A DNA stretch of 53,359 nt, taken from positions 1 to 53,359 of the forward strand of contig JAUNDJ010000005.1 of assembly GCA_030526175.1 (NCBI GenBank). The letters run 5' to 3'. Within the stretch, counting starts at the first letter, position 1. Each line of letters opens with the position of its first letter. A program made the position numbers and the translations under genes. The stretch comes from Bacillota bacterium. GTDB lineage: Bacteria; Bacillota_I; Bacilli_A; Erysipelotrichales; Erysipelotrichaceae. Shown here in pieces: positions 13,582 through 51,404 of the stretch. The notes beneath the pieces were generated by a model that worked only from the letters and a program-made list of their open reading frames with translations, had not been told where the DNA came from and did not search any database.

Positions 13582-14793
13582 TTATTCGTCGTTTTCGTCC
13601 TCTAAATTGAGGTCGACTAGATCGGCGACGAACTTCTGACGAGCATGTAATACATCTGTATATGTATCAGCGGTAATATTAATATCACTATGACCAAGAT
13701 GAGCAGATACAGTCTTTAGATCAACATCATTCATCAGTAATAGTGTTGCATTCGTATGACGCAAGAAGTGAACGGTTATGTATTCATAGTCCGTTCCTTT
13801 TTTTATTGAAGCAAGTCTAGATGATACAGTATGACGATTAATGTAATTACCAGTATTACCTGCAAAGACTAGATTATGATCTTCATATACATTACATAAA
13901 GCTTTCTTCTTTTCATACTGATCTTCCTTGACGAGTTTGAGTAAGTTCATAAGTGTATCAGATATATATAAAGTTCTAAAACCATTATCGGTTTTTGGTG
14001 GACCAACATAAATATTACCACTAATGATGTTGACAGTTTTATTTACTTTGATTGTTCTTTTCTTAAAATCAACATCATCCCAGGTAAGTGCTAAGGTTTC
14101 ACCAATTCGCATGCCTGTATAAATCTGAAATTGAAGAACAGCATTGAGTACTGTAAATTCTGTGGTTTTCTTAATTATATCCTTTATTTGATGAAGTTCC
14201 AACGGTGGCTTCTTTTCTGTTTTATTCTTTTTAGGGCGGATTGCATTTTCACATGGATTTTCTTTAATCCATCCTTGAGATATAGCTACCTGAAAGATAC
14301 GACTAAGTGTCGAATGGATTGCACGTACATAACTATCCTTATAGTATTGTTTAGGGCGATGTGGTCTGCCTGTTTCTTTATCTTTTATAACAGCGACTTC
14401 ATTAAGAAATTGAGTAATACGTGCTGTTGTAAAATCACCAATCTTTATGAATCCTAGATCAGGTATGACTTTATTTTCCATGATCTGAGTAATCAGATCG
14501 ATTGTAGATTCTCTTAAACGATTAGGAGCATAAAAGTTTTTATACCAGTGCCATACTTCTATAAGTTGCTTTTCGCTGCCTAAGTTTTCTTTTCTTTCGA
14601 ATTGTCTAAGCATTTCTAGTTCCATTTCACGAGCAATGCTTCTGGCTTTTCGAATACTCATATCTTTAGGTGGTTTAAATGTCTTATATTTTCTGTTTTG
14701 GACTTTATTTCCATGAACATCGAGTTTATAGCCATCATTAACTGTAATATCAAATACGATACCTGATTTATTTTTTCTTTCTCTTATAGGCAT
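13582..14793 (-). CDS. int: Tyrosine site-specific integrase
   Basis: A 403-residue tyrosine recombinase that excises and integrates the element. It has an N-terminal arm-binding segment (about 1-60, AP2-like), a SAM-like core-binding domain (about 70-180) and a C-terminal catalytic domain. The catalytic set is visible: Arg in TGMRIGETLAL, the beta-strand Lys region VGPPKTDNG, HFLRHTNATLLL (HxxR), LGHSDINIT (His) and the nucleophile Tyr in TADTYTDV. The gene points toward the element end and lies next to 11-bp direct repeats. Its start overlaps the upstream XRE gene by 26 bases, so excision is coupled to the regulators. Confidence 0.93.
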   Translation of the reverse strand: MPIRERKNKSGIVFDITVNDGYKLDVHGNKVQNRKYKTFKPPKDMSIRKARSIAREMELEMLRQFERKENLGSEKQLIEVWHWYKNFYAPNRLRESTIDLITQIMENKVIPDLGFIKIGDFTTARITQFLNEVAVIKDKETGRPHRPKQYYKDSYVRAIHSTLSRIFQVAISQGWIKENPCENAIRPKKNKTEKKPPLELHQIKDIIKKTTEFTVLNAVLQFQIYTGMRIGETLALTWDDVDFKKRTIKVNKTVNIISGNIYVGPPKTDNGFRTLYISDTLMNLLKLVKEDQYEKKKALCNVYEDHNLVFAGNTGNYINRHTVSSRLASIKKGTDYEYITVHFLRHTNATLLLMNDVDLKTVSAHLGHSDINITADTYTDVLHARQKFVADLVDLNLEDENDE

Positions 14794-24375: not shown

Positions 24376-25885
24376 ATGAACATTAGAAAATTATTTAAGA
24401 AGACAATGGTATGTCTTACCAGTGCATTTATTGTTGGATCAACGTGTTTAAGTGGCGTCTCTGCTGCTACTTATACAACAGGATCAGTTCATCATGATGA
24501 TTGGATTCTTACGAAACCAGATGGAAGTACGCATGGTCATGAAGGGCAATTACAAGTTAATGGTGTTGATGCCTATTGCGTGGATTATGAAACAACATTC
24601 CACAAAAATAAGACAGTAGTTGCAGGAACCTATAAAGATATTGGATTAACTGCTGAAAAAGCCAAAAGATTAGCAGTTATTGCTTATTATGGCCATAAGG
24701 TATCAGGGAGAACAGGTACTGACTGGTATGCGATTACGCAAGGATTACTTTGGAGAGAAATTGAAGGTAGAACAGATTTAGAGTTTGTTTCTTGTAAAAC
24801 TGCTCCAACTTATGCTGATCAACAAAAATGCTGGAATGCTATCTTAGCTGATGTTGATCGTTATTATACCGCACCATCATTTGCAAAGAACACTTATACA
24901 GTAGATGCAGATGGATCTATTACATTAACAGATACAAATAATGTATTAAGTGATATGGTTGTAGCTAATGCAGGTGGATTGGATGTAAGCATTTCTGGTA
25001 ATAAACTTACAATCAAAGGTAAAAGTGGTGTTACTGGAAAAGTAAATCTAGTATTAAAGAAAAATATTCCAGTTGCTGAAACTGGAACAACAATTGTTTA
25101 TACAGCTGATGATTGTCAGGCTGTAGCTCAGTTTAAGATTTCAGATCCATTCCAAGCTTCATTAAGCGTTGAAATTCAAGAATATGGAAACATTGAATTA
25201 ACTAAATACAACGAAGATAAAAGTGGATTAGTTCCTAATACTGAATATCGTATTACAGGTGTTGGTTATGATAAAACATTTACGACAGATGCAAACGGTA
25301 AAATCAGTATTGAGAGATTAAAAGTTGGATCTTACAAGATTACTGAAGTAAAAGCTAGTGAAGGTTATTTAATCAATACAGGAAGCATGACTGTAACAGT
25401 TGAAGCAAACAAAACTGCAAAAGCTGAATTTACAAACAATGAACCAACAGGTAAAGTTACCTTCACAAAATCTATTGATTTAAATCAGACAAATAACTTA
25501 AAAGGTGATGCTAATGTTGAAGGTGTTACTTATCAGTTAGTAGCAGATGAAAAGATTACAAATAAAGCTGGAACAAAAACATTCTTTAATAAGGGTGATG
25601 TTGTAGAAAGCAAGAAAACTGATGCAAACGGAAAGATTACATGGGATGATCTTCCATTAGGACATTATGTGATCAAGGAAACAAAAACTAACGGAACACT
25701 TGTATTAAATGAACAAACTTATAAGGTTAGTATTGAATATGAAGGACAAACAGTTGCTAAAGTATCAAGAATGGCTGAAGGTTCAGACAGAGTCAATATG
25801 CAAAAGATTCAAATCTTCAAGTCAGGAACTAAAGATGGCATCTCCGATTTAGTTAAAGGATTACAAGGTGCTGAATTTACATTCA
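24376..25885 (+). CDS. Thioester-domain CnaB surface adhesin, exon 1 (split by group II intron)
   Basis: The first 503 codons of a protein of about 1297 residues. It has a signal peptide (cleavage after GVSA, about residue 30) and then a TQxA/thioester domain: Cys68 in VDAYCVDY and Gln122 in AITQGLLW should form the internal thioester that binds host or donor-cell surfaces covalently. CnaB/SpaA-like modules follow, with likely isopeptide Lys in ELTKYN and Glu in YKITEVKA. The start at 24376 has AAAGGA at 24362-24367. At 25886 a group II intron begins; unspliced reading stops 18 bases in. Splicing joins base 25885 to 28609 in frame, giving FTF-KLKSEVDHVGW. It probably helps mating-pair contact. 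Confidence 0.85.
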
Positions 25886-26606
25886 GTGCGACACGTTCAT
25901 AATTGAAAAGATTATGCACTAAGTCGTTGTATATATACAATTGAATAACTTAGGAGAACTAGTTGTTTGAAGAGTGGAATGATAGAGTAACGTCTAAAAA
26001 CGCTCTCGCTAATACTCCGATTGGCAAAAGGTATGTAATGACCTGATGTCAAAAGCTCGGTGAAGTCGGCAGAGAATTACCCTAACATATAATGGTGAGG
26101 AAAGTCATGTAGAGGTATATGATGTAATCTATATGCCGGGCGTCGATTATCTATGGTGAGAATGTGTTTCAAAACACTGACAAAGTTCCGAATGTACGGG
26201 TCTAGATGAATAAATTGTCGAAAGGCAATTCTCCAAATTGGAGGTACACGTGGTAAAGTAAGATTTGCATGTATGAAATACCATATAACGTTACAGGCGT
26301 TAAGTTGGATAGGCAATGTGTACAGGACTATAGGAGCCACCTAAGGATAATTAATGATAGAACAACTGGAACGTGGAAAGCTAGAAACAAAGAGGTTATT
26401 ACAGACCGTTGACGTGTAAAATAGGAAAGGTATGAATAATACTATAACTATTTGAATTCTAGTGAGAGTAGAGGCACAGTACCAGTGAAGCCATGATAAT
26501 AAGTGGTGGAGGGATAGCCTCAAGTCGATTATTTGAAAGGAGATTGAAAACATAATAAACATAGCTTCGAGTATGACAAAGAAAACCATTGAAAGGAATG
26601 GTGCCT

Positions 26607-28469
26607 ATGTTGACTTCGAACAAACATAAAACGATTAAAAAATTAAGATATTTAGAATATTACGATATGCAAAAGATAACTGATGAATTGTACGAAAAGA
26701 GTAGTAAAGGAAATATATTCAAAAATCTAATGTCTCTTATTACTGCTGATGCAAATATCAAATTAGCATATAGAACCATTAAATCCAATAGAGGTAGCTA
26801 TACACCTGGAATAGATGGTAGAACTATAAAAGACATTGCAAAGCTTAAAGAAGATGAATATGTTAACTTGATTAAGAAACAATTTGCATTCTACAAGCCT
26901 AGAGCCGTTAAGAGGGTCGAAATACCTAAAGCAAATGGTAAAACACGACCTTTAGGTATCCCAACAATTGTAGATAGGATTGTTCAACAATGTATACTGC
27001 AAATCCTAGAACCGATTTGTGAAGCAAAATTTTATAAATATTCTTTGGGATTTAGACCAAACTGTTCGGCGGAGCACGCAATAGCAACATGCAGTAAATA
27101 TATGCAACTGAGTAATCTTCATTACGTGGTAGACTTGGATATAAAGGGCTTCTTTGACAATGTAAACCATTCAAAACTTATTAAACAAATTTGGAGTTTC
27201 GGTATTAGGGATAAGAAGTTAATATGTATTATCAAGGAAACCTTAAAAGCGCCTATAGTCATGCCTGACAAAAAGGTGGTATTTCCATCCAAAGGTACAC
27301 CACAAGGCGGTATATTATCACCTTTATTATCTTTGATAGTCCTTAATGAGCTGGATTGGTGGATATCAAGTCAATGGGAAAGTTTCCCGACCAGATATTC
27401 ATACAAATTAAAAGTGCATAAAAATGGGACGTTAGATAGGGGTCATATCTATAGGGAACTAAGGAAAACAAAACTCAAAGAGGTTTATATAGTTAGGTAT
27501 GCGGATGATTTTAAATTATTTTGTAGAGACTATATCACTGCTAAGAAAATGTTTATCGCAACTCAAAAATGGCTTAAAGAAAGACTGAAATTAGATATAA
27601 GTGAAGAAAAATCAAAAATAGTCAATTTAAAAAAGAACTACTCGGAATTTCTTGGATTCAAAATGAAAGTAATACCAAGAAAGAAGAAATATATAGTACA
27701 ATCACATATCACAAATAAAGCAATCGATAAGATTGAAAAATCATTGATGCGTCAAATTAAAGAGATAGAATATCCAAAGAGCAAAAAGGATGAAAGCAAA
27801 GCTATCAATAAATATAACTTAAAAGTTATAGGGATACATCAATACTACTGTTTGGCTACATTAGTAAGCGAAGATTTTCGCAAGATTTCTTACAAGATTA
27901 ATAAGAGGCTAAACAATAGAATATCGGGATTGAAAAAAGATGGCGTATTAGAAAATCATTTCTATGAGAAGAAATACGGAAAAAGCAGTTCTCTACGCTA
28001 TGTTCGAGAGAATGTGATATTACCAATAAATTATGTAAGAATGAAGATAACACATATGAAAAAACCTTTAATTAACAAATATACCATTAAGGGTCGTTCA
28101 TTAATACATGATAACCTCATTCTGGATAACAGTATGATGCAATGGTTATTAAATAATCCTTTGAAGGAAGCAACAATAGAACGAGCAGATAATGCTTTAT
28201 CACTATATTCCTCACAAAAAGGACGATGTCATTTAACAGGATTAGATTTAGAACCGAATTTTATCCATTACCTCTACAAAAAACAACTCAATGATGTAGA
28301 GAAAGATGTCTATAAAAATCTAAGGTTAATATCAAGCGTAGGAAAGGTGCTTATATTCAGTAAAGATATTGAATCAGTTAGATATGCAATAAATAAACTA
28401 AACTTAAAGACAAAATATATAAAAAGAATAAATGAATATCGAAAACTAAATAATTTAGAAATACTTTAG
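26607..28469 (+). CDS. ltrA: Group II intron reverse transcriptase/maturase
   Basis: A 620-residue multifunctional intron protein that splices the intron and reverse transcribes it. RT blocks are visible: PKANGKTRPLGIPTIVDRI, YSLGFRPNCSAEHAI, VVDLDIKGFFDNV, GTPQGGILSPLL, and the catalytic YADD in VRYADDFKLF. The maturase (X) region follows. The C-terminal HNH-type endonuclease domain looks decayed: CHLTG and NLRLIS are kept, but the HH pair reads IHY and the last histidine is lost (VGKVLI). The start at 26607 is chosen by AAAGGA spacing; a TTG at 26589 opens the frame. It lies in intron domain IV. Confidence 0.92.
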   Translation: MLTSNKHKTIKKLRYLEYYDMQKITDELYEKSSKGNIFKNLMSLITADANIKLAYRTIKSNRGSYTPGIDGRTIKDIAKLKEDEYVNLIKKQFAFYKPRAVKRVEIPKANGKTRPLGIPTIVDRIVQQCILQILEPICEAKFYKYSLGFRPNCSAEHAIATCSKYMQLSNLHYVVDLDIKGFFDNVNHSKLIKQIWSFGIRDKKLICIIKETLKAPIVMPDKKVVFPSKGTPQGGILSPLLSLIVLNELDWWISSQWESFPTRYSYKLKVHKNGTLDRGHIYRELRKTKLKEVYIVRYADDFKLFCRDYITAKKMFIATQKWLKERLKLDISEEKSKIVNLKKNYSEFLGFKMKVIPRKKKYIVQSHITNKAIDKIEKSLMRQIKEIEYPKSKKDESKAINKYNLKVIGIHQYYCLATLVSEDFRKISYKINKRLNNRISGLKKDGVLENHFYEKKYGKSSSLRYVRENVILPINYVRMKITHMKKPLINKYTIKGRSLIHDNLILDNSMMQWLLNNPLKEATIERADNALSLYSSQKGRCHLTGLDLEPNFIHYLYKKQLNDVEKDVYKNLRLISSVGKVLIFSKDIESVRYAINKLNLKTKYIKRINEYRKLNNLEIL

Positions 28470-28526
28470 TAAAGTTCGAAGTGTGTAAATTATGTTTAAA
28501 AAATTAAAATCAAATAATCGATGGAA

Positions 28527-28605
28527 CGCCGTGTGCGATGAAAGTCGCATGCACGGTGTGGAGCGGGGGAAAAGATGGAGATTATATCAAAATCTTACCT
28601 ATCGC
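28527..28605 (+). ncRNA. Group II intron domains V and VI
   Basis: Domain V: CGCCGTGTGCGAT, a GAAA loop, and the 3' arm TCGCATGCACGG (28527-28560), with the catalytic CGC triad at the start. Domain VI: AAGAT...ATCTT stem (28572-28596) that should hold the bulged branch-point A. Confidence 0.85.
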
Positions 28606-28608
28606 TAT

Positions 28609-30992
28609 AATTAAAATCAGAAGTAGATCATGTTGGATGGGATAGTGCACCTGCGTATGCAATTGTTGTAACTGACAAAAATGGTAAGGCAAATACATCT
28701 TATTTACCTTATGGAACATATTTGGTTAGGGAAACTAAAACGCCTGCAGATTATATTACTGCACCAGACTTCACAGTTTCAGTAACAAAAGACTATACAG
28801 AATTTGATGATGTTGAACAGGTTAAACGTATTAATGTAAATAACAGACCTTTCACATCTCAATTAAAACTTGTTAAAAAAGATAAAGAAACAGGCAAAAC
28901 TGTTACTTTAAACAGTGCATCATTCAAAATTAAAGATGCAAATGGTAACTATGTGACTCAAAAAGTATCAGGAAAGAAATATGATACTTTCACAACAAAC
29001 TCAAAAAATCAGGTAGTTGTATTTGATGGTAATAATGGTGAAGTATTCTTACCATTATCTTTAGATGTAGGAACTTACAGCGTAGAAGAAGTTAAAGTTC
29101 CTGAAGGATTCCTTGAATTAGAATCACCAGTAACATTTACAATTACAAACACTAGAAACTATGATGTTGATGGTGATGAAGATCCAATCGTTACTGTTCA
29201 GGTTAAAAATGACAGATGTTATGGTAAGTTAGAAGTTAAAAAGTACATTGAAGCATTTGAAGCAGATAAGACTTTAGTTAATAGAGAAGACTTATCAGGA
29301 TTTGAATTCTCTTTATATGCTAAAAAAGATATTATTTCTCCAATTGATGGAAGTGTCTTATTAAAAGCAAATGAAAAATATGGAACTTACTTAACAGATA
29401 AGGAAGGTAAGATTTTTGTCTCAAAGATTCCAATGGGATCATATATTTTAAAAGAAACAAAAACAAAAGATGGATTCGTTTTAGATGATAAAGAAACAGC
29501 CATTACATTTAAACAAACAGATACGGTAACTAAAGAATACACAGTTACTGCTGATATTGAAAACAAGACAACTAAATATGAATTCTCTAAGAAATCAGTT
29601 ACTGGTGATGATGAATTAGAAGGTGCTAATTTAACAGTTACTGATAAAGATGGAAACATCATTGATGAATGGACTTCAGGCAAAGAAACTCATATGATTG
29701 AAGGTTTAACTGTAAATCGAGTTTACACATTAACTGAAGAAATTGCTCCAGATGGATATGTTAAAGCAACAACTATTTATTTCACTGTAGAAAATACAGG
29801 TAAGGTTCAAAAGATTACGATGATTGATAAAACTGTATCAATGTCAAAAGTTGATGTAGGTGGTAAAGAAATTGAAGGTGCTACTATTCAGGTCAAAGAT
29901 AAAGATGGAAATATTGTTGATGAATGGGTATCAACTACTGAAAGTCATTTAATCAAAGGTCTTGAAGAAGGACAAACTTATATCTTACATGAAGAAGTTG
30001 CAGCTGACGGATATGTAAAAGCTACTGATATAGAATTTACTGTTTCTAAAGAAAAGACAGATGATAAAGTGACAATGATTGATAAGATTGTGGATATGTC
30101 TAAAGTCGATGTTGCAGGGAAAGAAGTACCTGGTGCTAAGATTCAAGTCTTTGATGAAGATGGTAATATTGTAGATGAATGGACTTCAACAACAGAGCCA
30201 CACAAAATCAAAGGATTAGAAGAAGGTAAAAAGTACATCTTACATGAAGAAGTAGGTCCTGAAGGCTATGTTGTAGCTACTGACGTAGAATTCACTGTTA
30301 CAGAAGAAAAAGAAAATCAACATCTTGAATTAACTGATAAACAGTTATTCGTTAAGAAAATGGATCAGTTAGACAAATATGTAGAAGGTGCTAAATTACA
30401 GGTATTAGATAAAGAAGGTAATGTGATTGCTGAATGGGATACTAAAGAAGATTATGCTGTTTCTGGATTAAAAGCTGGAGAAACATATATCTTACATGAA
30501 GTAGAAGCACCTGAAAATTATATTAAAGCTGAAGATATCGAATTCACAGTTAAAGATGACAAAGAAAATCAGTATGTAGAAATGATTGATATCAAAACTG
30601 ATGATGTAGATATCACAAAATATGATGCAACAAGCAAGAAAGAATTACCAGGTGCTCATTTAGAAATCAGAGACAAAAATGGTAAGTTAATCGAAGAATG
30701 GATCTCCACAGAAGAACAACATAAAGTAAAATTAGTTGTTGGTGAAACATACACTCTAACTGAAACAATTGCACCAGATGGTTATAAAGTGGCCGAAACA
30801 ATTGAATTTACTGTTGAAGACAATGGTAAAGTTGTACAACAGGTACAAATGTTTGATGAATTATTACCAGCAAGACAAATTGTAAATACTGGTGATAATT
30901 CAAATATCATGCTTTATGCATTATTAGCTTCAGGCAGTGCAGTTGCATTACTTGGAACATATTATTTTGAAAGAAAAAAAGAAGAGGAATAA
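28609..30992 (+). CDS. Thioester-domain CnaB surface adhesin, exon 2
   Basis: The last 794 codons of the split adhesin. From LKSEVDHVGWDSAPAYA it continues a CnaB module, then several more CnaB/SpaA domains. Five tandem repeats of about 73 residues follow (patterns DGNIVDEW, YILHEEVAADGYVKATDIEFTV, with KVDVGGKE and ALVT-like starts), and last the cell-wall sorting signal: IVNTG, a hydrophobic helix (IMLYALLASGSAVALLGTYY) and RKKEEE. The sorting motif IVNTG differs from LPXTG, so a non-housekeeping sortase may act. No sortase gene lies in the window. Repeats suit a long stalk stiffened by isopeptide bonds. An ATG at 28722 is internal, not a separate gene start. Confidence 0.88.
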
Positions 30993-31048: not shown

Positions 31049-31618
31049 ATGAAAACATTAGAGAGATTATTAAATGATAGAGTAACAATTCAATTGAAAT
31101 CAGAAGTTGAAAGATATTTAGAAGGGGCATTAGAAGGTGGTGAATATCTAATTCATACAGATACAGAATGCTTCAATAATATTACTGTAAAAGTGATTGG
31201 ATCTGATGAAAAGACACTAGCTTTTATGTCTGGATACTATATTCAGTTTCATGATTATAAGGATTTAATCTTTAATGCCGATGGGCATGATGAAAACTTT
31301 TATAACATTGTAAGTAATGTTGAAGAACATGTATCAAAGATCAAGGAACCACAAAGCATCTATTTTAATTTATTTATTAATGCAAAGATGTCTTGTGCAG
31401 TAGAAGCACAATTATATATTCATCTGAAGGATATGATTTATACAGTTCTTCATTATGTTCCTGAATATGTTGCCGGATATATTCGTAAGGAAACATGGAA
31501 TATGGTAGGAAGAGAGCTTACTAAACAGGGATTTAAAGTCATTAATGAAGATATTGATTGTTTAGAAATTTTATGTAAAGGTAATGAAGAATGCAGAAGC
31601 GTTACATTGTGGGGATAG
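31049..31618 (+). CDS. Hypothetical protein at the head of the transfer operon
   Basis: A 189-residue cytosolic acidic protein of unknown family. Sequence alternates beta-like and helical stretches (VKVIGSDEKTLAFMSGYYIQF, AKMSCAVEAQLYIHL) with no signal peptide. It overlaps the next gene by 28 bases, so it belongs to the conjugation operon. Confidence 0.5.
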   Translation: MKTLERLLNDRVTIQLKSEVERYLEGALEGGEYLIHTDTECFNNITVKVIGSDEKTLAFMSGYYIQFHDYKDLIFNADGHDENFYNIVSNVEEHVSKIKEPQSIYFNLFINAKMSCAVEAQLYIHLKDMIYTVLHYVPEYVAGYIRKETWNMVGRELTKQGFKVINEDIDCLEILCKGNEECRSVTLWG

Positions 31619-31842
31619 AACTGGCAGTATTGCTGGTTCTTTTTCTTTTGATGTCATTCTTCTGGTCAATTCAACAGGCAATATTGGTAATTGTTCCTTT
31701 AAGTATCTGTACATTTGAAGGGACAATTCTTATATGGTTGAGTTGTATCATCACCAAACACTTTAAACAGAAGTTTAATGAACAGAAAGAAACATTTATA
31801 GAAGAATTCGATAAGACAAAAAACTATTATCGAGGGAGGTAG
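31591..31842 (+). CDS. Small two-segment membrane protein
   Basis: 83 residues: two hydrophobic segments (IELAVLLVLFLLMSFFW and AILVIVPLSICTFEGTILIW) and a charged cytosolic tail (KQKFNEQKETFIEEFDK). It starts inside the upstream gene and ends 3 bases before the next. Probably a small component of the mating channel; no family recognised. Confidence 0.55.
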   Translation: MQKRYIVGIELAVLLVLFLLMSFFWSIQQAILVIVPLSICTFEGTILIWLSCIITKHFKQKFNEQKETFIEEFDKTKNYYRGR

Positions 31843-31845
31843 ACG

Positions 31846-32151
31846 ATGGATAAACTATTAATGTTAAAGAATAAAGCTATGATGGCACCTGTAGTGCTAT
31901 CAGGTATTAATGAAGGTGAATTAGAAAAATGGATTAAAGGTTATACTGATCCAATTACAAACTTATTAATCTGGTTAATTCCTATTGGTGGAGTTATTGC
32001 CAGTCTTGTCACAATTGTTGTGTGGTTTACGAAAGATGAAGAAATGAAACAGAGAGATAATCCATACAGAATTGTGAAGAAAATTGTTTTCTGGTGTCTT
32101 GTTGGAGAAGGTATGCTTGCCATCTTCAAAGCATTAGGAATTACATCATAA
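31846..32151 (+). CDS. VirB2-like small membrane protein
   Basis: 101 residues with two hydrophobic segments (LLIWLIPIGGVIASLVTIVVW and KIVFWCLVGEGMLAIFKAL) separated by a charged loop. Size, topology and position just before the VirB6/TrbL-like gene match the VirB2/Maff2-type proteins of Gram-positive ICEs. A GGGAGGT ribosome site precedes it. The assignment rests mostly on position and topology. Confidence 0.55.
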   Translation: MDKLLMLKNKAMMAPVVLSGINEGELEKWIKGYTDPITNLLIWLIPIGGVIASLVTIVVWFTKDEEMKQRDNPYRIVKKIVFWCLVGEGMLAIFKALGITS

Positions 32152-32187
32152 GATAACTGACTGTAATAAGTGAGAGGTGGTGATACA

Positions 32188-33930
32188 TTGTCAAAGATTA
32201 TTACAGCTATTACAGGATGGTTTAGATCGTTATTATGGAGTATCGCTGAGATATTCCTTTTTTTATTGGACTGCTTATGGCAGGTTGTTTTAAAAGTAGG
32301 AACATTAAATATTGGTGGCAGTAAAGTAACAACAAGATTCTTTGCAGTGATGAGTGTGTGTATGCTGATATTTATTGTTTTTAAGCTGGTGAAGATATAT
32401 ATCAAGTTCTTTATTGATAATGACTATAGAGAAAGAATTAACTTATCTAAAGTACTGATCAGTCTTTCTTTAGCAGCAACTTTAATATCAGGATTACCAC
32501 TTGGTTATAAGATTGTCTGTAATATGTCGAGTGAAGCAATCGCAAATGTCAATTACTGGATTCCTTCTGATTTTGCAGAAGCATCTAAGGATGTAGATAA
32601 AATCAATATGTCAGATGTACTGATTCAATCAGGACGAGTCAATCTTTCTAATCGTGAAGCTGATCTGGGTGAAGAGATAAAGCTGGATGAAAACTTTGAT
32701 ATCAATGCAACATATGACAGGTCTGATTATGTAAATGATTTATTCAGTAATATTGGTTCTTTAGATGAAGAATCCATGACTTCAGAAAACTCAGTAGAAA
32801 TTATGAAAAGTATTGCAGGTATTATTGGTTATGGAAGTAAGACATACAAGTACTTTCCTACCTGGTCCTCTATTATATTAGAGATCCTTTTATCAGTAGT
32901 TGCACTGTTTATATTTGCATTAACCGCAATACAAATAGCAATGCGATCGGTAATATGTTCTATGAAATATCTTTTAGCACCTTATATGGTGGCTTCTATT
33001 ATTGATCCTGAAGATAACAGTTTTGGCACCTGGCTAAGAAGTATTGGAGGAGATTTGATTGCCAACTTCTGTCAGATCTATTTCACATACTTCGTATTGA
33101 TATTATGCAGCAATTCATCTATTCAGAATGCTTTAGGTAATGATTGGATAGGTATTTTTTCTAAGATTGCTTTATTTATTGGTGGATTACTTGCAATCCA
33201 GGAAATACCAAACTTCATCAGCCAGTTCTTTGGAAGTTCAGGTCAAAGTATGATGGAAACCATGAGAGGAACAATGATGATGGGATCTATGCTGATGCTT
33301 ACAGGTGGGGCTGCAGCTAAAACTGTTGGTATGGGGATTGGTGCAGGTAAATTTGCCTACCAGACTGGTAAGGCGATGACTGCTTCATACAGTGAAGCTG
33401 GTGGCGGTATGAATGGTATTAAAAGTGCTGGGAGTGAATTTATTGGTGGTGTATTTGGAAAAGGAGGTTCTCATTCAAATACTAACAATACCAATGAGGA
33501 AGGAATATCACAAAACAACAATCATACAAACTTTAGAGAAGAACATAAAGAATCATCTAACCACAGTCAAGGCGAACATACTGATAACAATAATGTAAAT
33601 CCTACAAATCCAAATAATCAGAAGATGAATTCATTTAATGATATGGGTAAAGAAATGTTGAACCCATTAAATGATGATATTGGTGGTAAAGCATATATTT
33701 CACCTGAATATCAGGGTAATGAAGATTACGACAGTTATTTAAATGCTGCTAAGTATTATGGAATTGAAAATGCTGAGTCAATGAGTAAAGATGAACTTAA
33801 AGCAGCATTAAATCAAAAAGGATATAAATATACTTCAATGAAGAATTTTAGAGGATCATTTAATAACGAATCTTATAAAACAAACATTAGAAGTATTAAA
33901 GAAAAGAACAAGAAAGGAAAGAAGAAATAA
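32188..33930 (+). CDS. VirB6/TrbL-like conjugation channel protein
   Basis: A 580-residue polytopic membrane protein. About seven hydrophobic segments lie within residues 10-400, including IILEILLSVVALFIFALTAIQIAMRSVICSMKY, a VirB6/TrbL-like central core, and IALFIGGLLAIQEIPNFISQFFG. A Gly-rich and Met-rich segment follows, then a long hydrophilic Asn/Ser-rich C-terminal tail of about 170 residues. The GAGAGGTGG ribosome site selects a TTG start at 32188; a GTG at 32170 is the alternative. It forms part of the membrane channel of the type IV secretion system. It overlaps the PrgI gene by 1 base. Confidence 0.75.
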   Translation: MSKIITAITGWFRSLLWSIAEIFLFLLDCLWQVVLKVGTLNIGGSKVTTRFFAVMSVCMLIFIVFKLVKIYIKFFIDNDYRERINLSKVLISLSLAATLISGLPLGYKIVCNMSSEAIANVNYWIPSDFAEASKDVDKINMSDVLIQSGRVNLSNREADLGEEIKLDENFDINATYDRSDYVNDLFSNIGSLDEESMTSENSVEIMKSIAGIIGYGSKTYKYFPTWSSIILEILLSVVALFIFALTAIQIAMRSVICSMKYLLAPYMVASIIDPEDNSFGTWLRSIGGDLIANFCQIYFTYFVLILCSNSSIQNALGNDWIGIFSKIALFIGGLLAIQEIPNFISQFFGSSGQSMMETMRGTMMMGSMLMLTGGAAAKTVGMGIGAGKFAYQTGKAMTASYSEAGGGMNGIKSAGSEFIGGVFGKGGSHSNTNNTNEEGISQNNNHTNFREEHKESSNHSQGEHTDNNNVNPTNPNNQKMNSFNDMGKEMLNPLNDDIGGKAYISPEYQGNEDYDSYLNAAKYYGIENAESMSKDELKAALNQKGYKYTSMKNFRGSFNNESYKTNIRSIKEKNKKGKKK

Positions 33931-34262
33931 TGCAATTCTATTGTCCAAGAGATTATAAAAATGGAAAGTATTACTTCAACAAGTATGATGCATTTGACTT
34001 AATGGTCATGGTACCTTTAGTAGTCATTGGTACATTTCTAAGCGTCATTTCATTATCAATGATGTCACAAGGTAATTTTACCTTCTCAGTTATTGGACTT
34101 ACTTTAGGATTACTGATTGTAGGTACTACATTAATTCTATTTATGCCTTATAAGATCTATCACAATATCTTAAACAGACTCATTGTGGAAATAAGGTTTC
34201 AGTTAAGACAAAAAGACTTCTTATGGTATGGATATAACTTTAATAACTATGAGGATGAATAA
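33930..34262 (+). CDS. PrgI family protein (VirB3-like)
   Basis: 110 residues: a short N-terminal segment (FYCPRDYKNGKYYFNKYDAFD), two membrane segments (VMVPLVVIGTFLSVISLSMM and VIGLTLGLLIVGTTLILF) and a basic C-terminal tail. This is the standard size and layout of PrgI/VirB3 proteins, which sit in the channel and contact VirB4. Usually the VirB4 gene follows directly; here a 2.6-kb block intervenes. A copy of the dispersed palindrome lies inside the gene. Confidence 0.75.
   Translation: MQFYCPRDYKNGKYYFNKYDAFDLMVMVPLVVIGTFLSVISLSMMSQGNFTFSVIGLTLGLLIVGTTLILFMPYKIYHNILNRLIVEIRFQLRQKDFLWYGYNFNNYEDE
34069..34084. repeat. Dispersed palindrome, copy 3 (inside prgI-like gene)
   Basis: AAGGTAATTTTACCTT with the left flank AC preserved. 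Central two bases TT instead of AT. It encodes QGNFTF within the membrane protein. Confidence 0.75.
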
Positions 34263-34307
34263 ATACTTGTTATAATATAATTCATATCAGTTGAAGAAGG
34301 TGACATT

Positions 34308-35807
34308 ATGCTTTTTAAGAAAATGTATGAAAAATTTAATAACAGATATGATTTTGATCAAAAACCAGATAATGATTATGGACTTCGTGATTTAGCGAAG
34401 GTAATAAAATATAATGTTGATGTTATTGAAGAAATGCTCGAAAGTGAAAATCGCATTTTTCCATTTAATTGCATTGGAAGTTCTGGTAATGAAATTTCAG
34501 TATTAAACGATGAACGATTTCAATTGAAAAATGGAGATATGCTATGGGATAGAGATGAAAATGAAATTATAGAAATATTGACTAACGATAGACGTAGAGG
34601 AAATCCTAAAAGTAGTACTATAGAAAGTCATTTAAAAAAGATGCATATTCCAAAACCTCTTGAAGGAACGCAAGATTATTATGAGTATTTGCAAATACTT
34701 TATTTCTTATATATGACAAAATTTATTGCATTTCCTAGCATTAACATATTCAAGTTAATCACGGAAAATACAACGGATAGTAATGTTGGTGAATATGGAG
34801 AGAAAGGTAATTGCATGACTTTTATATTGACTAATGTATTAGAAAGTGAAAAATGTGCTGTCAATTATTATGCTGTTCATGATACTATAACAAAATTGCT
34901 AACTACTATTGATCACTACTTACAAAAGTGGTATGTGTGGGATAAATATGAAAAAATATCTTATTTGGATAAGAAAATCAATGATGAAATAGCAGATTTA
35001 TTAAGTAACAAACAAAGTTATCTATCTAATATCGGAGCTAAATATGATATTGACGAATCTCCATTGGAAAAGTTCATGTACGGTATTTATCGATTTTCGT
35101 TTGTGTCATTTTCAACAGATATTTTAAAGAATTTAAAAGGAAAAAAAGAAAACTTCCGTTGTTCTGAACTTGAATTTGAGGATTTGTTTTGTGATTTTGT
35201 GACACATGCAAATTATGAGTATATACAAATTGGTTCAAAATATAATAGTGATATGATAGATAGTTATGTTTCGGAAGATATAGTTATTATGTACTGCTTA
35301 CAGAAAGAAAAGTTAGTATCGAAGGATAAAACAGATTTTTTAAAGCATCAAGCTGTAAACTTTCTACATAGATTCATATCAGAAGAAATAGATTATTTGG
35401 GCAAAGGTATTGAAAGTTCATTTGTAGAATTAGATCAAAATCAATTTAGAATAAAAAAAGCTTATGTTCTTGCTATTCTTATGGCATATAGAGAAATAAA
35501 CTTTAAAGTGTACATGAAGTATTATGATGGTGAACAAACAAGACCAACAAGATCTTTAAATGCTCATTTATCCAATGGCTCATTTAATAATCCAATAAAT
35601 ATAGCCATTAAGGAATTATTTAATATTTGCTTTCATTCAGAATACTATAATATTACACGAGGCTATGGCTATTTTTATTTTTTTAAGCAAGTAGATTTAG
35701 AAAGATATATCATGTTTTTTGAAATATTAAACACTTTTTTTACAAGCGATAATCATATTGTTTGGATTGTATTGCTAAATGAAATAGCTAAGTATCTAGA
35801 GATTTAA
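34308..35807 (+). CDS. Unknown 499-residue protein inserted in the transfer operon
   Basis: I do not recognise this protein. It is soluble, rich in Tyr, Phe, Asn and Ile, without signal peptide, membrane segment, P-loop or visible catalytic motif. Sections such as DYYEYLQILYFLYMTKF and HQAVNFLHRFISEEIDYLG suggest an all-helical fold. A TATAAT (34272-34277) lies in the 45-base gap upstream and a hairpin with a short T-run (about 35845-35870) lies after it, so it seems to have its own transcription unit. It separates prgI from virB4, which are normally adjacent, so it looks like a later insertion. A role in defence, exclusion or regulation is possible but is only inference. Confidence 0.55.
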   Translation: MLFKKMYEKFNNRYDFDQKPDNDYGLRDLAKVIKYNVDVIEEMLESENRIFPFNCIGSSGNEISVLNDERFQLKNGDMLWDRDENEIIEILTNDRRRGNPKSSTIESHLKKMHIPKPLEGTQDYYEYLQILYFLYMTKFIAFPSINIFKLITENTTDSNVGEYGEKGNCMTFILTNVLESEKCAVNYYAVHDTITKLLTTIDHYLQKWYVWDKYEKISYLDKKINDEIADLLSNKQSYLSNIGAKYDIDESPLEKFMYGIYRFSFVSFSTDILKNLKGKKENFRCSELEFEDLFCDFVTHANYEYIQIGSKYNSDMIDSYVSEDIVIMYCLQKEKLVSKDKTDFLKHQAVNFLHRFISEEIDYLGKGIESSFVELDQNQFRIKKAYVLAILMAYREINFKVYMKYYDGEQTRPTRSLNAHLSNGSFNNPINIAIKELFNICFHSEYYNITRGYGYFYFFKQVDLERYIMFFEILNTFFTSDNHIVWIVLLNEIAKYLEI

Positions 35808-35893
35808 GTTGGGAAATCTTTGTGAACTTTTCCGCAGGGTAGTTCAAAAGAGGTATGCTATCCTTTTAGTGTAAAGAAAGGATGGTGTTACTT

Positions 35894-36586
35894 ATGTGTA
35901 ACGAAGATTACATTTTACAAATGTTTAATTTAAACGAAAGAATCTATATTGATACTTCTACTTTGATGGAAGTCTATGGGTTAAGATCATTTATTGAAAA
36001 GGTTCGACCTATATGTAGAGAAAAAGGGCATCGCATTATTGTGACTGATTCAGTATGTGCTGAATTAGAAAAACATATGCATTCACTTAATGAATTTAAG
36101 AAAAGCAAAGCTGCTGAAGCTATGCTATTGGTTTGTCAAAATAGTGATATTTTTCAGATTGAGGATATCAGTAGCAAAAGATTAAGGGAAGAAAAGTTCA
36201 TTAACTCATTTGCTGATCCAGAACTTATAAAAGAGATATTAAGTAACAAGTTTAATCATACTCAGCTACTAATTACCAATGACAGAAAACTTTCTTCTGA
36301 TGTATATGATTTGAATACCTTTGAATCATGTAGAGGTAAAAGAATAGCAGTATGTTATCTAAATTCTACCGGAAATCTTATGATGTGTGATTGTGCAAGA
36401 AATCAAACTGTTGAAGATCCAAAAATTGAAGAAACAAAGCCTTCTATTCAATATGTTGATAGAATCATAGTCAGAGAACCAGATGGATTTCATAAACATG
36501 GTATTCCAACATTAACATTTGCTGGTGGTTTGGCGTGTGCTTGTGGATGGAAACCTTTAGTTAAATTTGTTAAATCGTTACTATAG
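35894..36586 (+). CDS. PIN-domain-like protein with C-terminal extension
   Basis: A 230-residue protein. The N-terminal half shows PIN-type acidic motifs in order: RIYIDTSTLMEV (first Asp), VTDSVCAELEKH (Glu) and LLITNDRKLSSDV (Asp). PIN domains are Mg-dependent RNases, often toxins. The C-terminal third has NLMMCDCARN and a Gly-rich hydrophobic end (TFAGGLACACGWKPLVKFV) that may associate with membrane. No antitoxin-like HTH gene is adjacent. The start at 35894 follows AAAGGATG; an ATG at 35882 overlaps that site. It lies in the insertion between prgI and virB4. Confidence 0.65.
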   Translation: MCNEDYILQMFNLNERIYIDTSTLMEVYGLRSFIEKVRPICREKGHRIIVTDSVCAELEKHMHSLNEFKKSKAAEAMLLVCQNSDIFQIEDISSKRLREEKFINSFADPELIKEILSNKFNHTQLLITNDRKLSSDVYDLNTFESCRGKRIAVCYLNSTGNLMMCDCARNQTVEDPKIEETKPSIQYVDRIIVREPDGFHKHGIPTLTFAGGLACACGWKPLVKFVKSLL

Positions 36587-36599
36587 GAGGATCAATCAA

Positions 36600-36908
36600 A
36601 TGAACGATAACTTATACAAAACAATTTCTACTTGCATTTTAACAGCTGGAGCATGTTTCATCAGCTATGAAGTAATTAATAACAAAACACCATTCTTATG
36701 TGAGTATGATATTGAATCGAAAAAAATAAGATTTGGTATGAATGGAGGAAATCCGAAAGCTTTAGAAAACAATCAAAAAGTTGTTAAGCCATCTTTAGAT
36801 ACCACACCTGTTGTTAATGAGGATGCAAAGACTAAAGAGTTAAAGAATGCCACCGCAAAAACTAAAACGATAGTTGAAAATATATATGTTGATCAACAAT
36901 CCAATTAG
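36600..36908 (+). CDS. Small membrane-anchored hypothetical protein
   Basis: 102 residues: an N-terminal hydrophobic segment (TISTCILTAGACFISYEVI), then a hydrophilic region ending in KTKTIVENIYVDQQSN. AGGAGG at 36585-36590 fixes the start. It follows the PIN-domain gene by 13 bases and its stop lies inside a terminator. It may act as a partner of the PIN protein; unproven. Confidence 0.5.
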   Translation: MNDNLYKTISTCILTAGACFISYEVINNKTPFLCEYDIESKKIRFGMNGGNPKALENNQKVVKPSLDTTPVVNEDAKTKELKNATAKTKTIVENIYVDQQSN

Positions 36909-36926
36909 TGGATTGTTTTTCTTTTT
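36895..36926 (+). terminator. Terminator of the inserted block
   Basis: AACAATCC and GGATTGTT form an 8-bp stem followed by TTTTCTTTTT, spanning the stop codon of the preceding gene. A terminator in the middle of a conjugation operon supports the view that this block is foreign to it. Confidence 0.85.
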
Positions 36927-36944
36927 GCCTGGAAGGAGGATTTA

Positions 36945-37610
36945 ATGAATAAAGAAAAACGATTATTAAAGGAACAAAAGAAAAAGGAAAAGCAACTTAA
37001 AAAGAAGAAACAAAAACGTATTAAAGAATTAAAAAACATTCTAGATTGGATGCATATTCAAGCAATTGATGAATATGGCATTTACTTATCTAAAGGTAAT
37101 AAGGATATGGTTGTTAGGGGATTGGTTTTATCTTCTAACAACATTTTTCTTAAAGAAAGTTACGCAAAGGCTAGAGATGTATTTGCATTATCTTCAGCTT
37201 TTGACAGATTAAAAGGTGTTACTTATTTTAAGTTTGTTAAGACACCAATCAGACTTAGCAGTAATGTTAACCGGTTAAGTGAAGATCTTGAAATAGAGAA
37301 GAACCCAGGTAGAAGAAAGCTAATGAAAATCTCAATAGATAAAATGGATGATGCAATGCAAGTACGTAAAGAGATGGCGTTTTATGTATTAGTGCAAGAT
37401 AAACCAGATGTTATTGATAAAAGGTTATATGCATTAAAACAGGAAATGAATCTTGCTGGATTACATCCGCAGGTAATGGGTATTACAGACTATGAAGCTG
37501 TAGTGGCTCAACAGTTTGAAAATGAAATAGTCAATGAATACATGTATAGCAGTTTAATCGTAGATCAGGAGGTGTATCAAAATGCGATTGACCAAGTCAA
37601 AGCGTGCTAG
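36945..37610 (+). CDS. VirB4-linked protein (N-terminal-domain-like)
   Basis: A 221-residue protein with a very basic first 30 residues (KKKEKQLKKKKQKRIKEL), then a globular part (DEYGIYLSKGNKDMVVRGLVLSS, FKFVKTPIRL, EMAFYVLVQDKPDVI) that resembles the N-terminal domain found before the ATPase core of many VirB4/TraC proteins. The next gene starts 29 bases inside it and encodes the ATPase core, so the pair may be a split VirB4. A GGAAGGAGG ribosome site precedes the ATG. Confidence 0.55.
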   Translation: MNKEKRLLKEQKKKEKQLKKKKQKRIKELKNILDWMHIQAIDEYGIYLSKGNKDMVVRGLVLSSNNIFLKESYAKARDVFALSSAFDRLKGVTYFKFVKTPIRLSSNVNRLSEDLEIEKNPGRRKLMKISIDKMDDAMQVRKEMAFYVLVQDKPDVIDKRLYALKQEMNLAGLHPQVMGITDYEAVVAQQFENEIVNEYMYSSLIVDQEVYQNAIDQVKAC

Positions 37611-39444
37611 AAGAACAACAATTGCCCCTAAAGGATTATTAGAAAGAAATAACTATTATATTTTAGGTGATACTTATGTAAGGGTACTTACTATTTCAGC
37701 ACTTCCTAATGAATTTGGTGAAGGCTTTTTAGCGCAGTTTATCAATGATCATCGTTTCCATATAGATATTTCTACAAGTATTATGAATGAAGATGTTTCT
37801 TCATTCTTACAAAAGGAAATTAATGAATTAGAAAGCAAGATTGATAAATGTGATAACGATATTAACAGAGAAATCTTAATTAAAAGATATAGATCATATC
37901 AAGATTCCTTAAAACAGTTGGTTGCCAATAACTCGAGAACAATCAATACTGTTATTAACTTGTACATTCATGCTAAATCATTACAGGATTTAGAAGAGTA
38001 TACTAAGGAACTTAAGGAATTCTTTTATTCAACAGGACTGTCCGTTCGCTTGGATACATTACCTCGATTACAGGTAGGTACAATGCAGAAGAACAGTCCT
38101 TTATTTATTGGAAATTCATTAGATCGATACAGTAACTATCATATTGGATTAATGATGCCTTCGTTGTCTGTTGCTGGATTGTGGCCATTTATTTTTGATT
38201 CTATGGATGATAAATATGGATCATTCATTGGTGTTGAAGCGAATACAGGAGGAAAAATTGTCTTTGATCAGTTTGCCTATATCAATGATAAAAACGCAAG
38301 ATATCAGGGTAGAACAGCAGGTAATATGATTATTGTTGGTAGAACTGGTATGGGTAAAACGACCATTATTAATCTGTTAGTCAATTCTCATTTAATTAAT
38401 AAAAGAAAGGTCATCTGGTGTGATCCAGAAAATAAGAATAAGAAACTAACAAATGAGTTAGGTGGGAACTACATTGAATTTGGTGTTGATAAAAACATTA
38501 TCAATATTTTTGATTTAAGACCAGTAACGACAGATGATGAAAACAGAGAAGATGACAGTGTCATGTATGATACGATTACTGCAATCAGTAATGTTGTTGA
38601 AGATTTAACGATTACATTTAGATTGCTATGGCCAACGATTACAGAAAATGAATTAGATATGGTAAATGAAATCACAGTGAAAACTTATAGAAGTGCTGGT
38701 ATTGATGGCAGTGAGTCGTTTAAGTACTATACACCAAAGGATTATCCAACATTTACTGACTTTTCAGGTACGATAGATGAGTTAATTGATGAATACAGTA
38801 AGAACTTATCATTGTATAAAAGAGAGTATGATGCATTAAAAGATCTACAGATGAGAATGAGAAATCTGGTAGGCACACCTGATGTTCCGGGACAAAATGC
38901 CAGATATTTTAATGGTAAGACAAATATTGATTTTGAGGCATTAGAAGATATTGGTTTATTATCATTTGGTATGAAACATTTGTCTTCTACACCTATTGGT
39001 GTAAGAAATGCATTATTAAGACTTGTATTTAACTATGCCTGGTCTAAATGCTTATCTACAGATGAAGAAACAGTATTTGTATCAGATGAAGATCATGAAT
39101 TCATTTCTATTGAAGAAATTGCTTCAATCAAAGCTCAGTTTCAACGAAGAGCAAGAAAGTACAATACTGTCACAATCTCAGGGACACAGCAGGTAAGAGA
39201 CTATTGTGATGAAAAGATTCTAACTTATGGACGAGCCATTTTTGAAAACAGTACATATCAGATGTATTTCAATATGTATAAAAGTTCAGTAGAAGACTTG
39301 TCACAGTTAATCGTACTAACAGATCAGGAGAAAGAACAGTTGGTAAATTTACCACCTTATACATGTTTAACAGAAGTTGGTAATCGTAAGATTCCTATTC
39401 GTATATTGCTTACAGATGAAGAAGATAGATTAATAGGTAAATAG
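37582..39444 (+). CDS. virB4: VirB4-like conjugation ATPase
   Basis: A 620-residue ATPase that powers the mating channel. The Walker A is VGRTGMGKTT (about residue 253). The Walker B-like segment is TVFVSDEDHEFISIEE, with VSDED in place of the usual hydrophobic-DE-A form. Motif GTQQVRDY and the final NLPPYTCLTEVG are also family-like. Preceded by a perfect AGGAGGTG ribosome site and overlapping the upstream gene by 29 bases. The N-terminal part is shorter than in single-chain VirB4 proteins (about 800 residues). The cell-wall hydrolase starts at the next base after its stop. Confidence 0.88.
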   Translation: MRLTKSKRARRTTIAPKGLLERNNYYILGDTYVRVLTISALPNEFGEGFLAQFINDHRFHIDISTSIMNEDVSSFLQKEINELESKIDKCDNDINREILIKRYRSYQDSLKQLVANNSRTINTVINLYIHAKSLQDLEEYTKELKEFFYSTGLSVRLDTLPRLQVGTMQKNSPLFIGNSLDRYSNYHIGLMMPSLSVAGLWPFIFDSMDDKYGSFIGVEANTGGKIVFDQFAYINDKNARYQGRTAGNMIIVGRTGMGKTTIINLLVNSHLINKRKVIWCDPENKNKKLTNELGGNYIEFGVDKNIINIFDLRPVTTDDENREDDSVMYDTITAISNVVEDLTITFRLLWPTITENELDMVNEITVKTYRSAGIDGSESFKYYTPKDYPTFTDFSGTIDELIDEYSKNLSLYKREYDALKDLQMRMRNLVGTPDVPGQNARYFNGKTNIDFEALEDIGLLSFGMKHLSSTPIGVRNALLRLVFNYAWSKCLSTDEETVFVSDEDHEFISIEEIASIKAQFQRRARKYNTVTISGTQQVRDYCDEKILTYGRAIFENSTYQMYFNMYKSSVEDLSQLIVLTDQEKEQLVNLPPYTCLTEVGNRKIPIRILLTDEEDRLIGK

Positions 39445-40632
39445 ATGAATACATTAAAGTATTTGATGAATAAAATGACGAGAAAAGTTGGAGTGACTCT
39501 TCTCGTTTTTATTTTGGCAATGGGTGCAATATTAACACCATTTGTCGCAATGAATGAATATCTTAAACATCCAATATCCATTACATATGACATCATCTTT
39601 GGTGATTTTTTTAAGATTGAACTAGGAGGAAATATCAATGTTAAAGTACTTCAGTATAAAGCAGAGATAGAGAAGTGGACATCAAAGGAAAAAAATGGTT
39701 ATTATGATTTGTCTCCATATGAAAATGTTTTATTTGCATTGATGATGACAGAAAGTGGTGGGAATGGTAATGATCCTATGCAGTCAAGTGAATGCGGTAA
39801 GAATACTAGATATTCTCATAAACCTAATTCCATTACTGATCCTAAGTATTCCATTGAATGTGGTGTAAAGAATTTTGCGGATGCTATGTCACGAGCAACA
39901 TCAAAAGGACTAACAGGAAGTGATGCCTTATATAATGCAATTGATGGATACAATAAAGGCTTTGGTGTAATCAGTAAACATGCAGAAGTAGGACATTATT
40001 CTTTAGAAACAAGCTGTAAGTTTTGTTATGACCATAGATTCAGTGATCAAAAGAAATCATACAGTACAGCAGCTACATTAAAAAGTCAGTATAATTTAAA
40101 GTCAAATAATTACTGGGATGGTGGCAGCTGGAGATGGAACTATGGCAATATGTTTTATGTCTATAAGGTATTAAGCTATCTTAAAATATCAGATGATACA
40201 GTTATTCCATACGATGGAACAATAGGCAGTATGATAGCTGCTGAAGCACAAAAGAAAATAGGATGTAGATACTGGTATGGTGAAGAAGGTCCAAATTATT
40301 TTGACTGTTCTGGTTTAGTATACTGGTGTTGTAAACAGGCAGGTATGAGCATTACCAGAGAAGGTGCTAATACTTATTCAAAAATGGGAAAAGCTATTGC
40401 TTATAAAGATTTAAAACCAGGAGATGTTGTTACATTTGACTGGGATAATGACAATAAAGCTGAGCATATAGGAATCTATATAGGTGGAGGTTTTATGATT
40501 CATGCACATGGTGATAGCTATGTACATGGCAATTATGCCAAGTTTGTAGTTGAAAAGAAAAGTATTAGTTCGGGGTACTATCATGATCATATCTTTAGAT
40601 GCAGAAGACTTTATTGGAGAAAAATGCTATAA
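39445..40632 (+). CDS. VirB1-like cell-wall hydrolase (lysozyme-like + NlpC/P60)
   Basis: A 395-residue secreted or membrane-anchored hydrolase that opens peptidoglycan for the channel. A membrane anchor lies at about 15-40 (VGVTLLVFILAMGAILTPFV). A lysozyme-like transglycosylase domain follows with catalytic Glu in LFALMMTESGGNGNDPMQ, and last an NlpC/P60 endopeptidase with Cys288 in YFDCSGLVYW and His in AEHIGIYIGGG, plus IHAHGD. This two-domain layout matches Tn916 Orf14/CwlT and PrgK-type proteins. Last gene of the T4SS cluster before the cargo block. Confidence 0.9.
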   Translation: MNTLKYLMNKMTRKVGVTLLVFILAMGAILTPFVAMNEYLKHPISITYDIIFGDFFKIELGGNINVKVLQYKAEIEKWTSKEKNGYYDLSPYENVLFALMMTESGGNGNDPMQSSECGKNTRYSHKPNSITDPKYSIECGVKNFADAMSRATSKGLTGSDALYNAIDGYNKGFGVISKHAEVGHYSLETSCKFCYDHRFSDQKKSYSTAATLKSQYNLKSNNYWDGGSWRWNYGNMFYVYKVLSYLKISDDTVIPYDGTIGSMIAAEAQKKIGCRYWYGEEGPNYFDCSGLVYWCCKQAGMSITREGANTYSKMGKAIAYKDLKPGDVVTFDWDNDNKAEHIGIYIGGGFMIHAHGDSYVHGNYAKFVVEKKSISSGYYHDHIFRCRRLYWRKML

Positions 40633-50228: not shown

Positions 50229-51404
50229 ATGAAGATAACGAAGATAAGATTTTTTGAATATGGACAAAAGCCACCAAAGAATTCAAGATTTAAAGATACA
50301 ATCTCGAATGAAACAGTTGGTGGTTATTTTGATTACACAGGCAGAGAAGAAGCTAAAGATGTTGATAAAGAAATTGTGAAACAAGAAGATGGCTATTTTG
50401 GATATACGGGCAGCCATAGTGTTGGAACTTATAGTTCAAGTGGTGAATTAAATACCAAAGAAGAAAGGGATGCCTTTAAAAAAGAAATAGATCAATGTTT
50501 TCATAAAGATGGTAATCTTTGCTGGGATTATGTCATTTCATTAGAGAATGATAAAGAAGCATATAATTTGGGATTAGAGAACACAGAACAATGGTTATCA
50601 GCAGTCAAAGAATTTCTGCCAAAAATGCTGAAGGAATATCATATTGATTACAACAATACCTTATGGTGGTTTGATCTTCATCGTAATACTGAACATCCAC
50701 ATATCCATCTTGTATTTATGGAAAAGCATCAAACAAGGACTAGAGGTAAACTTACTCCAAGAGAAATGAAAAATGTAAAAAGACATATTTATTCATCATT
50801 AAGTGCGAGAGCAAAACTAAAAGAAAGAACTGGTAAGGATTATAGAACTTTCTTCCAGGAAAAAGATATGTCACTAAAGGAACTGATGACATCAATCGAG
50901 AAAAAGGATTTAAAGAAAAATCCAAAGCTTAGAGATTTATATAAAGTATTACCTAAGACTGGAAGGCTTCAATACAATTCATACAATATGAAGCAATATC
51001 AATCAATGATTAAATCTATTATTGATGATCTGATTCAAAATGATGATGAACTAAATAAAGCGTTTAATGAATATCTAGGTAAGCTGGATCAGTTAGAAGA
51101 GGTGATGAATGAAGAAGGAAATGATGTTGCGACAATAAAAGAAACTGAATTAGAAAAGTTTTATTCTAAAGTAGGCAACTACATACTTCAAAACTTTAAG
51201 AAGACCGAATATGTTGAAGAATCTAAGAAAGATGATAACAAGGTAAATTTACCTTCTAAAACTAAAAAGACCTATAAAAAGAAATATTTAACTGAAGCTA
51301 AACTAAAAGGATATATTCATAAACTTGCCAACGAACAACAAAGTGAAATTGATAAGGCTATTGAAGAATATAATCGAAGAATGGAAGAACAATTACTGGT
51401 ATAA
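50229..51404 (+). CDS. Conjugative relaxase (MobP/MobL-like)
   Basis: A 391-residue DNA relaxase that nicks oriT and leads the strand to the recipient. The metal-binding three-histidine motif is in LHRNTEHPHIHLVF. Candidate catalytic tyrosines are Tyr33 and Tyr36 in GGYFDYTGREEA, a pattern seen in MobP2-type relaxases. The C-terminal part is a Lys-rich, helical region. There is no helicase domain. VirD4 follows 38 bases later. Two dispersed palindromes flank it and one lies inside its 3' part. Confidence 0.85.
   Translation: MKITKIRFFEYGQKPPKNSRFKDTISNETVGGYFDYTGREEAKDVDKEIVKQEDGYFGYTGSHSVGTYSSSGELNTKEERDAFKKEIDQCFHKDGNLCWDYVISLENDKEAYNLGLENTEQWLSAVKEFLPKMLKEYHIDYNNTLWWFDLHRNTEHPHIHLVFMEKHQTRTRGKLTPREMKNVKRHIYSSLSARAKLKERTGKDYRTFFQEKDMSLKELMTSIEKKDLKKNPKLRDLYKVLPKTGRLQYNSYNMKQYQSMIKSIIDDLIQNDDELNKAFNEYLGKLDQLEEVMNEEGNDVATIKETELEKFYSKVGNYILQNFKKTEYVEESKKDDNKVNLPSKTKKTYKKKYLTEAKLKGYIHKLANEQQSEIDKAIEEYNRRMEEQLLV
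51240..51255. repeat. Dispersed palindrome, copy 6 (inside relaxase gene)
   Basis: AAGGTAAATTTACCTT with left flank AC present and right flank CT; coding for KVNLPS in a low-complexity linker of the relaxase. Confidence 0.85.

Follow-up and report, generated by a model that had tools for sequence, protein, structure and literature searches.

Within the window, the 53,359-nucleotide stretch of DNA analyzed here, sequence comparisons confirm that a complete group II intron splits the gene for a predicted thioester/SpaA adhesin in frame. The best explanation, to which a probability of about 0.85 is assigned, is that a mobile intron entered a SpaA-domain codon of an adhesin gene belonging to a conjugative element by EBS/IBS-guided reverse splicing. 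Following transcription, the ribozyme and its own maturase would then splice at 25885/28609, and the ligated exons would give a wall-anchored thioester adhesin of 1,297 codons. In its favor are the intact ribozyme core, the exon pairings, the restored frame, and the existence of empty-site homologues; against it are one mismatch between EBS1 and IBS1 and the loss of all four conserved endonuclease histidines. The positions of the relevant features are provided in Table 1. The window corresponds to contig C112 of an assembly of 2.85 Mb that is ∼90% complete with 6% contamination.

Table 1 Features of the split adhesin gene, its intron, and the surrounding conjugative element.
Feature	Positions	Strand	Basis or remarks
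Adhesin exon 1	24376..25885	+	signal peptide, thioester domain, two SpaA/CnaB domains, start of a third
Adhesin exon 2	28609..30992	+	remainder of split CnaB domain, more SpaA repeats, IVNTG sorting-like signal, membrane segment, charged tail
Group II intron (GTGCGAC...CTAT)	25886..28608	+	2,723 nt; Rfam, EBS/IBS pairing, intronless homologues
5' domain region	25954..26150	+	RF02004 (group-II-D1D4-5) match, 167.9 bits
D5 and D6	28524..28608	+	Rfam Intron_gpII, 62.3 bits; match ends exactly at 28608
Predicted branch-point A	28601	+	inspection
GA at -13/-12	25873..25874	+
IBS2 (ATTTA)	25875..25879	+
IBS1 (CATTCA)	25880..25885	+
EBS2	26207..26211	+	5/5 pairs with IBS2, one G-U
EBS1 (TGCATG)	26266..26271	+	5/6 pairs with IBS1; C.T mismatch at -3
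EBS3 (T)	26331	+	pairs with exon 2 base +1 (A at 28609)
Intron-encoded reverse transcriptase/maturase	26607..28469	+	YADD kept, endonuclease histidines lost
Stop codon met by unspliced mRNA	25900..25902	+	17 nt into intron
Tyrosine integrase of conjugative element	13582..14793	-
Conjugation gene block	31049..40632	+	TrbL-like, VirB4-like ATPase, lysozyme-NlpC/P60
MobL relaxase	50229..51404	+

From the ATG at 24376, exon 1 provides 503 codons plus one base. The first two bases of exon 2 (AA) complete a lysine codon divided as A and AA, and 793 further codons then lead to the stop at 30992, such that the joined frame totals 503 + 1 + 793 = 1,297 codons. Both exons remain open, and the predicted anchor lies in exon 2. 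The thioester domain is recognized by the Pfam TED model (1.4e-7, 32.3 bits versus a cut-off of 22) and also matches the solved SaTIE-TED; the predicted thioester bond, its residues picked by inspection, would link Cys 68 and Gln 122. The SpaA/CnaB repeats match with values of 2e-24 and 3e-98. For one SpaA domain, a short peptide spanning the junction scores 52.3 bits as opposed to 43.6 bits for the exon 2 piece alone, and thus the junction is placed inside a CnaB module. The IVNTG-membrane-charged tail arrangement, as read by inspection, constitutes a non-canonical sorting-like signal. The single open frame of about 1297 codons and the joining of two halves of a CnaB module, both put forward in the preliminary description, are therefore borne out, as are the intron ends that it gave.

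Three lines of evidence, independent of one another, define those ends: the Rfam matches, covarying EBS1, EBS2, and EBS3 pairs, and ungapped intronless homologues. The covariation analysis drew on 79 loci that encode maturase relatives, and both ends could be defined for 54 introns, including that of the window. Over these 54, the best EBS1 column showed a mean pairing of 0.926 with exon bases -1 to -6 (shuffled maximum 0.58-0.59), and the EBS2 pairing reached 0.80 versus ∼0.53 for shuffled data. A single column, EBS3, forms a pair with base +1 of exon 2 in 53 of the 54 introns, the next best column reaching 0.57. Fewer than six EBS1-IBS1 pairs are formed in 12/54 introns, and the window copy is among those with a mismatch. 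A shifted 5' splice site of the type known from Clostridium tetani was considered and rejected, the canonical site scoring above the best alternative.

Uninterrupted homologues of the adhesin, for which the preliminary description had advised a search, were indeed found. Three relatives from the same family (L007, L008, and L009) are colinear across the junction and show precisely the residues expected there, and closer homologues came from a search of the order. There, the 240-base joined flank aligns to ten homologues at 70-77% identity, eight of which show no gap at the predicted junction (71-77% DNA identity). One of the homologues, L137, carries the target site GAATTTACATTCAAA, identical to that in the window. 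The full-length homologues L140-L142 display ∼58% protein identity to exon 1; that of L142 contains both TED and SpaA domains. ParA and ParB genes are found in its vicinity, and the element in the window likewise has such genes upstream of its adhesin. Because the boundaries are fixed by both covarying EBS/IBS pairs and ungapped intronless homologues, they are not attributable to chance. Contig C11 of genome G305 carries the intronless L137 homologue and also, in L153, a VirD4-like gene interrupted by a related intron.

Several hallmarks of a mobile group II intron are present, namely catalytic 5' domains together with D5/D6, the EBS1, EBS2, and EBS3 pairings, and a reverse transcriptase/maturase. 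The frame of the latter is open from TTG 26589, with the ATG at 26607, preceded by AAAGGA, chosen as the start by inspection. The product of this frame is recognized by RVT_1 and by TIGR04416, the NCBIfam model for group II reverse transcriptase/maturase proteins (330.9 bits, cut-off 300). No deviations are observed at the 57 conserved columns of D5/D6; there are six at 181 columns in the 5' 521 nt of the intron (median 3.5) and two at 132 columns of the reverse transcriptase (median 4). The endonuclease domain deviates at four of 13 conserved columns (median 0), every one a histidine. Specifically, the conserved His 562, 563, 586, and 590 of the HNH DNA endonuclease domain are all changed; an HH pair is kept in 64 of 72 aligned proteins. 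HNH domains are present in many group II introns, not in all, and are not required for membership. The window's maturase sits on a long, weakly supported branch of the tree and is therefore not assigned a sister group.

One somewhat doubtful refinement, which the best explanation would accommodate, is that the intron has lost its mobility and persists solely owing to the adhesin's need for its splicing. The changed histidines alongside the retained reverse transcriptase and D5/D6 would fit such a history, as would the single copy of the intron in the ∼90% complete assembly. Two introns that likewise lack the endonuclease histidines (L112 and L113), however, are 94.2% identical to one another whereas the surrounding VirD4 exons are only 62-65% identical. 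This difference indicates that they moved recently between diverged host genes, after the histidines had been lost, either alone or with a helper, and it weakens the notion that endonuclease loss means immobility.

Production of the full-length adhesin very probably depends on splicing, as the preliminary description had proposed; the early stop in the intron and the frame restored at the junction strongly support that proposal. The predicted unspliced product is 508 residues in length and has the signal peptide and the thioester domain but no wall anchor. These features, together with the mismatch between EBS1 and IBS1, the position of the adhesin beside conjugation genes, and the isoforms made by alternative splicing of a C. 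tetani surface-layer gene (PMC3919590), could be taken to mean that splicing serves as a switch between an anchored adhesin and a secreted thioester fragment, the ratio of which affects mating contact. Such a role is nevertheless very unlikely: every reading frame stops early in these introns such that the early stop is not special, C. tetani splicing changed little with growth conditions (PMC3919590), the Rfam scan found no regulatory RNA family, and the best alternative 5' site falls below the canonical one in score. No sign of regulated splicing was seen in the sequence. Control on mating contact, reasonable given the neighboring conjugation genes, is possible but unsupported.

Given the EBS1-IBS1 mismatch in the window copy, splicing may be inefficient. 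Taken with the lost endonuclease histidines, the mismatch might even suggest an intron that now splices poorly and an adhesin gene that is effectively knocked out. The conserved ribozyme and reverse transcriptase/maturase, and an intact exon 2 that retains all 793 codons and the predicted anchor, render this highly improbable. Under the best explanation, namely a mobile intron spliced out with the help of its own maturase, splicing would occur in the cell and constitutively, with adhesin output lowered somewhat rather than regulated; by analogy with Ll.LtrB, a modest drop in expression is the likely effect of the intron.

Related introns place that of the window in a wider context. The frame test was applied to 52 introns with enough flanking sequence, and in 45 of these the exons join into one frame by an automatic procedure (p ∼3e-15 versus 1/3). 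Three more do so by inspection (L081 and L110, both in RadC, and L032 in a pilin-like gene, as in L152), for a total of 48/52. Among the hosts are VirD4, interrupted at several positions, TrbL, lysozyme-like and NlpC/P60 proteins, ParA, RadC, UvrD-type helicases, a UmuC-type polymerase, GyrB, topoisomerase, DnaE, methyltransferases, and phage capsid proteins, with conjugation genes being frequent hosts. The RadC, UvrD, UmuC, VirD4 (except L046), and NlpC hosts were named by eye from junction peptides, and the others were scanned against Pfam. Several individual cases were observed. A second SpaA surface protein from the same bacterial family is split in frame elsewhere by a related intron (L114). 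Phage capsid genes carry introns of the lineage in L042:5320-11165 and L043:933-7984, and in L042 two introns divide a single capsid gene into three exons. The intron sites of L034 and L066, shared by their respective same-site relatives, both fall in the VirD4 motif DEFG(T), at a distance of three bases from each other.

When the target sites were grouped by hand into 38 distinct ones, insertion was found to be in phase 1, after the first codon base, in 33 (34 with L151 read in the NlpC frame). GA occurs at -13/-12 in 22 of the 38. This motif explains the phase bias only partly because 12 of the 16 sites without it are also in phase 1 (13 if L151 is re-read). Early stops as the sole cause of the bias were rejected because the phase 0 frame is likewise closed by nt 21 and that of phase 2 by a median of nt 37. 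Several of the insertions interrupt conserved motifs, for example DEFG of VirD4, HNHPSG of RadC, and DEYQD of UvrD, a pattern that recalls inteins. It is conceivable, albeit unlikely, that the lineage is specialized for protein genes in an intein-like manner, with the GA and EBS rule matching codon structure in such a way that insertions come to lie in phase 1 at conserved codons, often those of active sites, in genes for conjugation and DNA handling. On this view, the adhesin copy would determine how much thioester protein is anchored relative to how much is secreted. The intron is best read as another member of a gene-dwelling, mobile lineage. Of the roles envisaged in the preliminary description, the neutral passenger fits best, as a selfish element tolerated by splicing well enough; most relatives lie in frame in unrelated genes.

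The adhesin and its intron sit in an integrative conjugative element, with the ParA and ParB genes upstream of the adhesin and conjugation genes adjoining it. At 22501-24197, immediately upstream of the adhesin and within the element, lies an AMP-binding enzyme; after it comes an open frame that overlaps it in a different frame, perhaps its frameshifted C-terminal part. The adhesin is the only TED protein in the ∼90% complete source assembly. No intron-free conjugative element nearly identical to that of the window was found, the TrbL matches in the family being only 28-35% identical, and a search of viral contigs gave no adhesin relatives.

Several known systems bear comparison. C.te.I1 of the C. 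tetani surface-layer gene (PMC3919590) is likewise a group II intron with a GUGCG end in a Gram-positive surface-protein gene, and its splicing fuses reading frames as predicted for the window. It encodes no protein, however, its 5' site is displaced by 8 nt, and it employs four 3' sites, whereas the single in-frame intron in the window combines canonical sites with a maturase of its own. Ll.LtrB, in the relaxase gene of pRS01, is a maturase-bearing intron in a conjugative-element gene whose product needs splicing, as predicted here; it reduces relaxase mRNA and lowers conjugation 3- to 4-fold via an intron-mRNA interaction (PMC6003770). The host is a relaxase rather than an adhesin, and the effect on conjugation was measured for Ll.LtrB only. 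Group II introns B.th.I1 and B.th.I2 of plasmid pAW63 also occupy conjugation genes of a T4SS, specifically a Tn916 ORF14-like gene and VirD4, although I2 has no encoded protein (PMC1196294); on this precedent the conjugation-gene setting is not new in kind. Group II introns in coding regions of phage genes were similarly backed by intronless homologues (PMC12350094), the hosts there being phages rather than a conjugative-element adhesin.

The arrangement is thus real but of a known kind, the intron family being often inside protein genes, many of them for conjugation, and the lineage-wide pattern is of more interest than the single adhesin. According to a review, most bacterial group II introns are located outside housekeeping genes (PMC4424553). 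Members of the lineage described here lie mostly within protein genes and strongly favor phase 1, and the lineage offers a testable target rule. One member resides in an adhesin on which the conjugative element may rely, which would make this a natural case of a surface protein dependent on a ribozyme.
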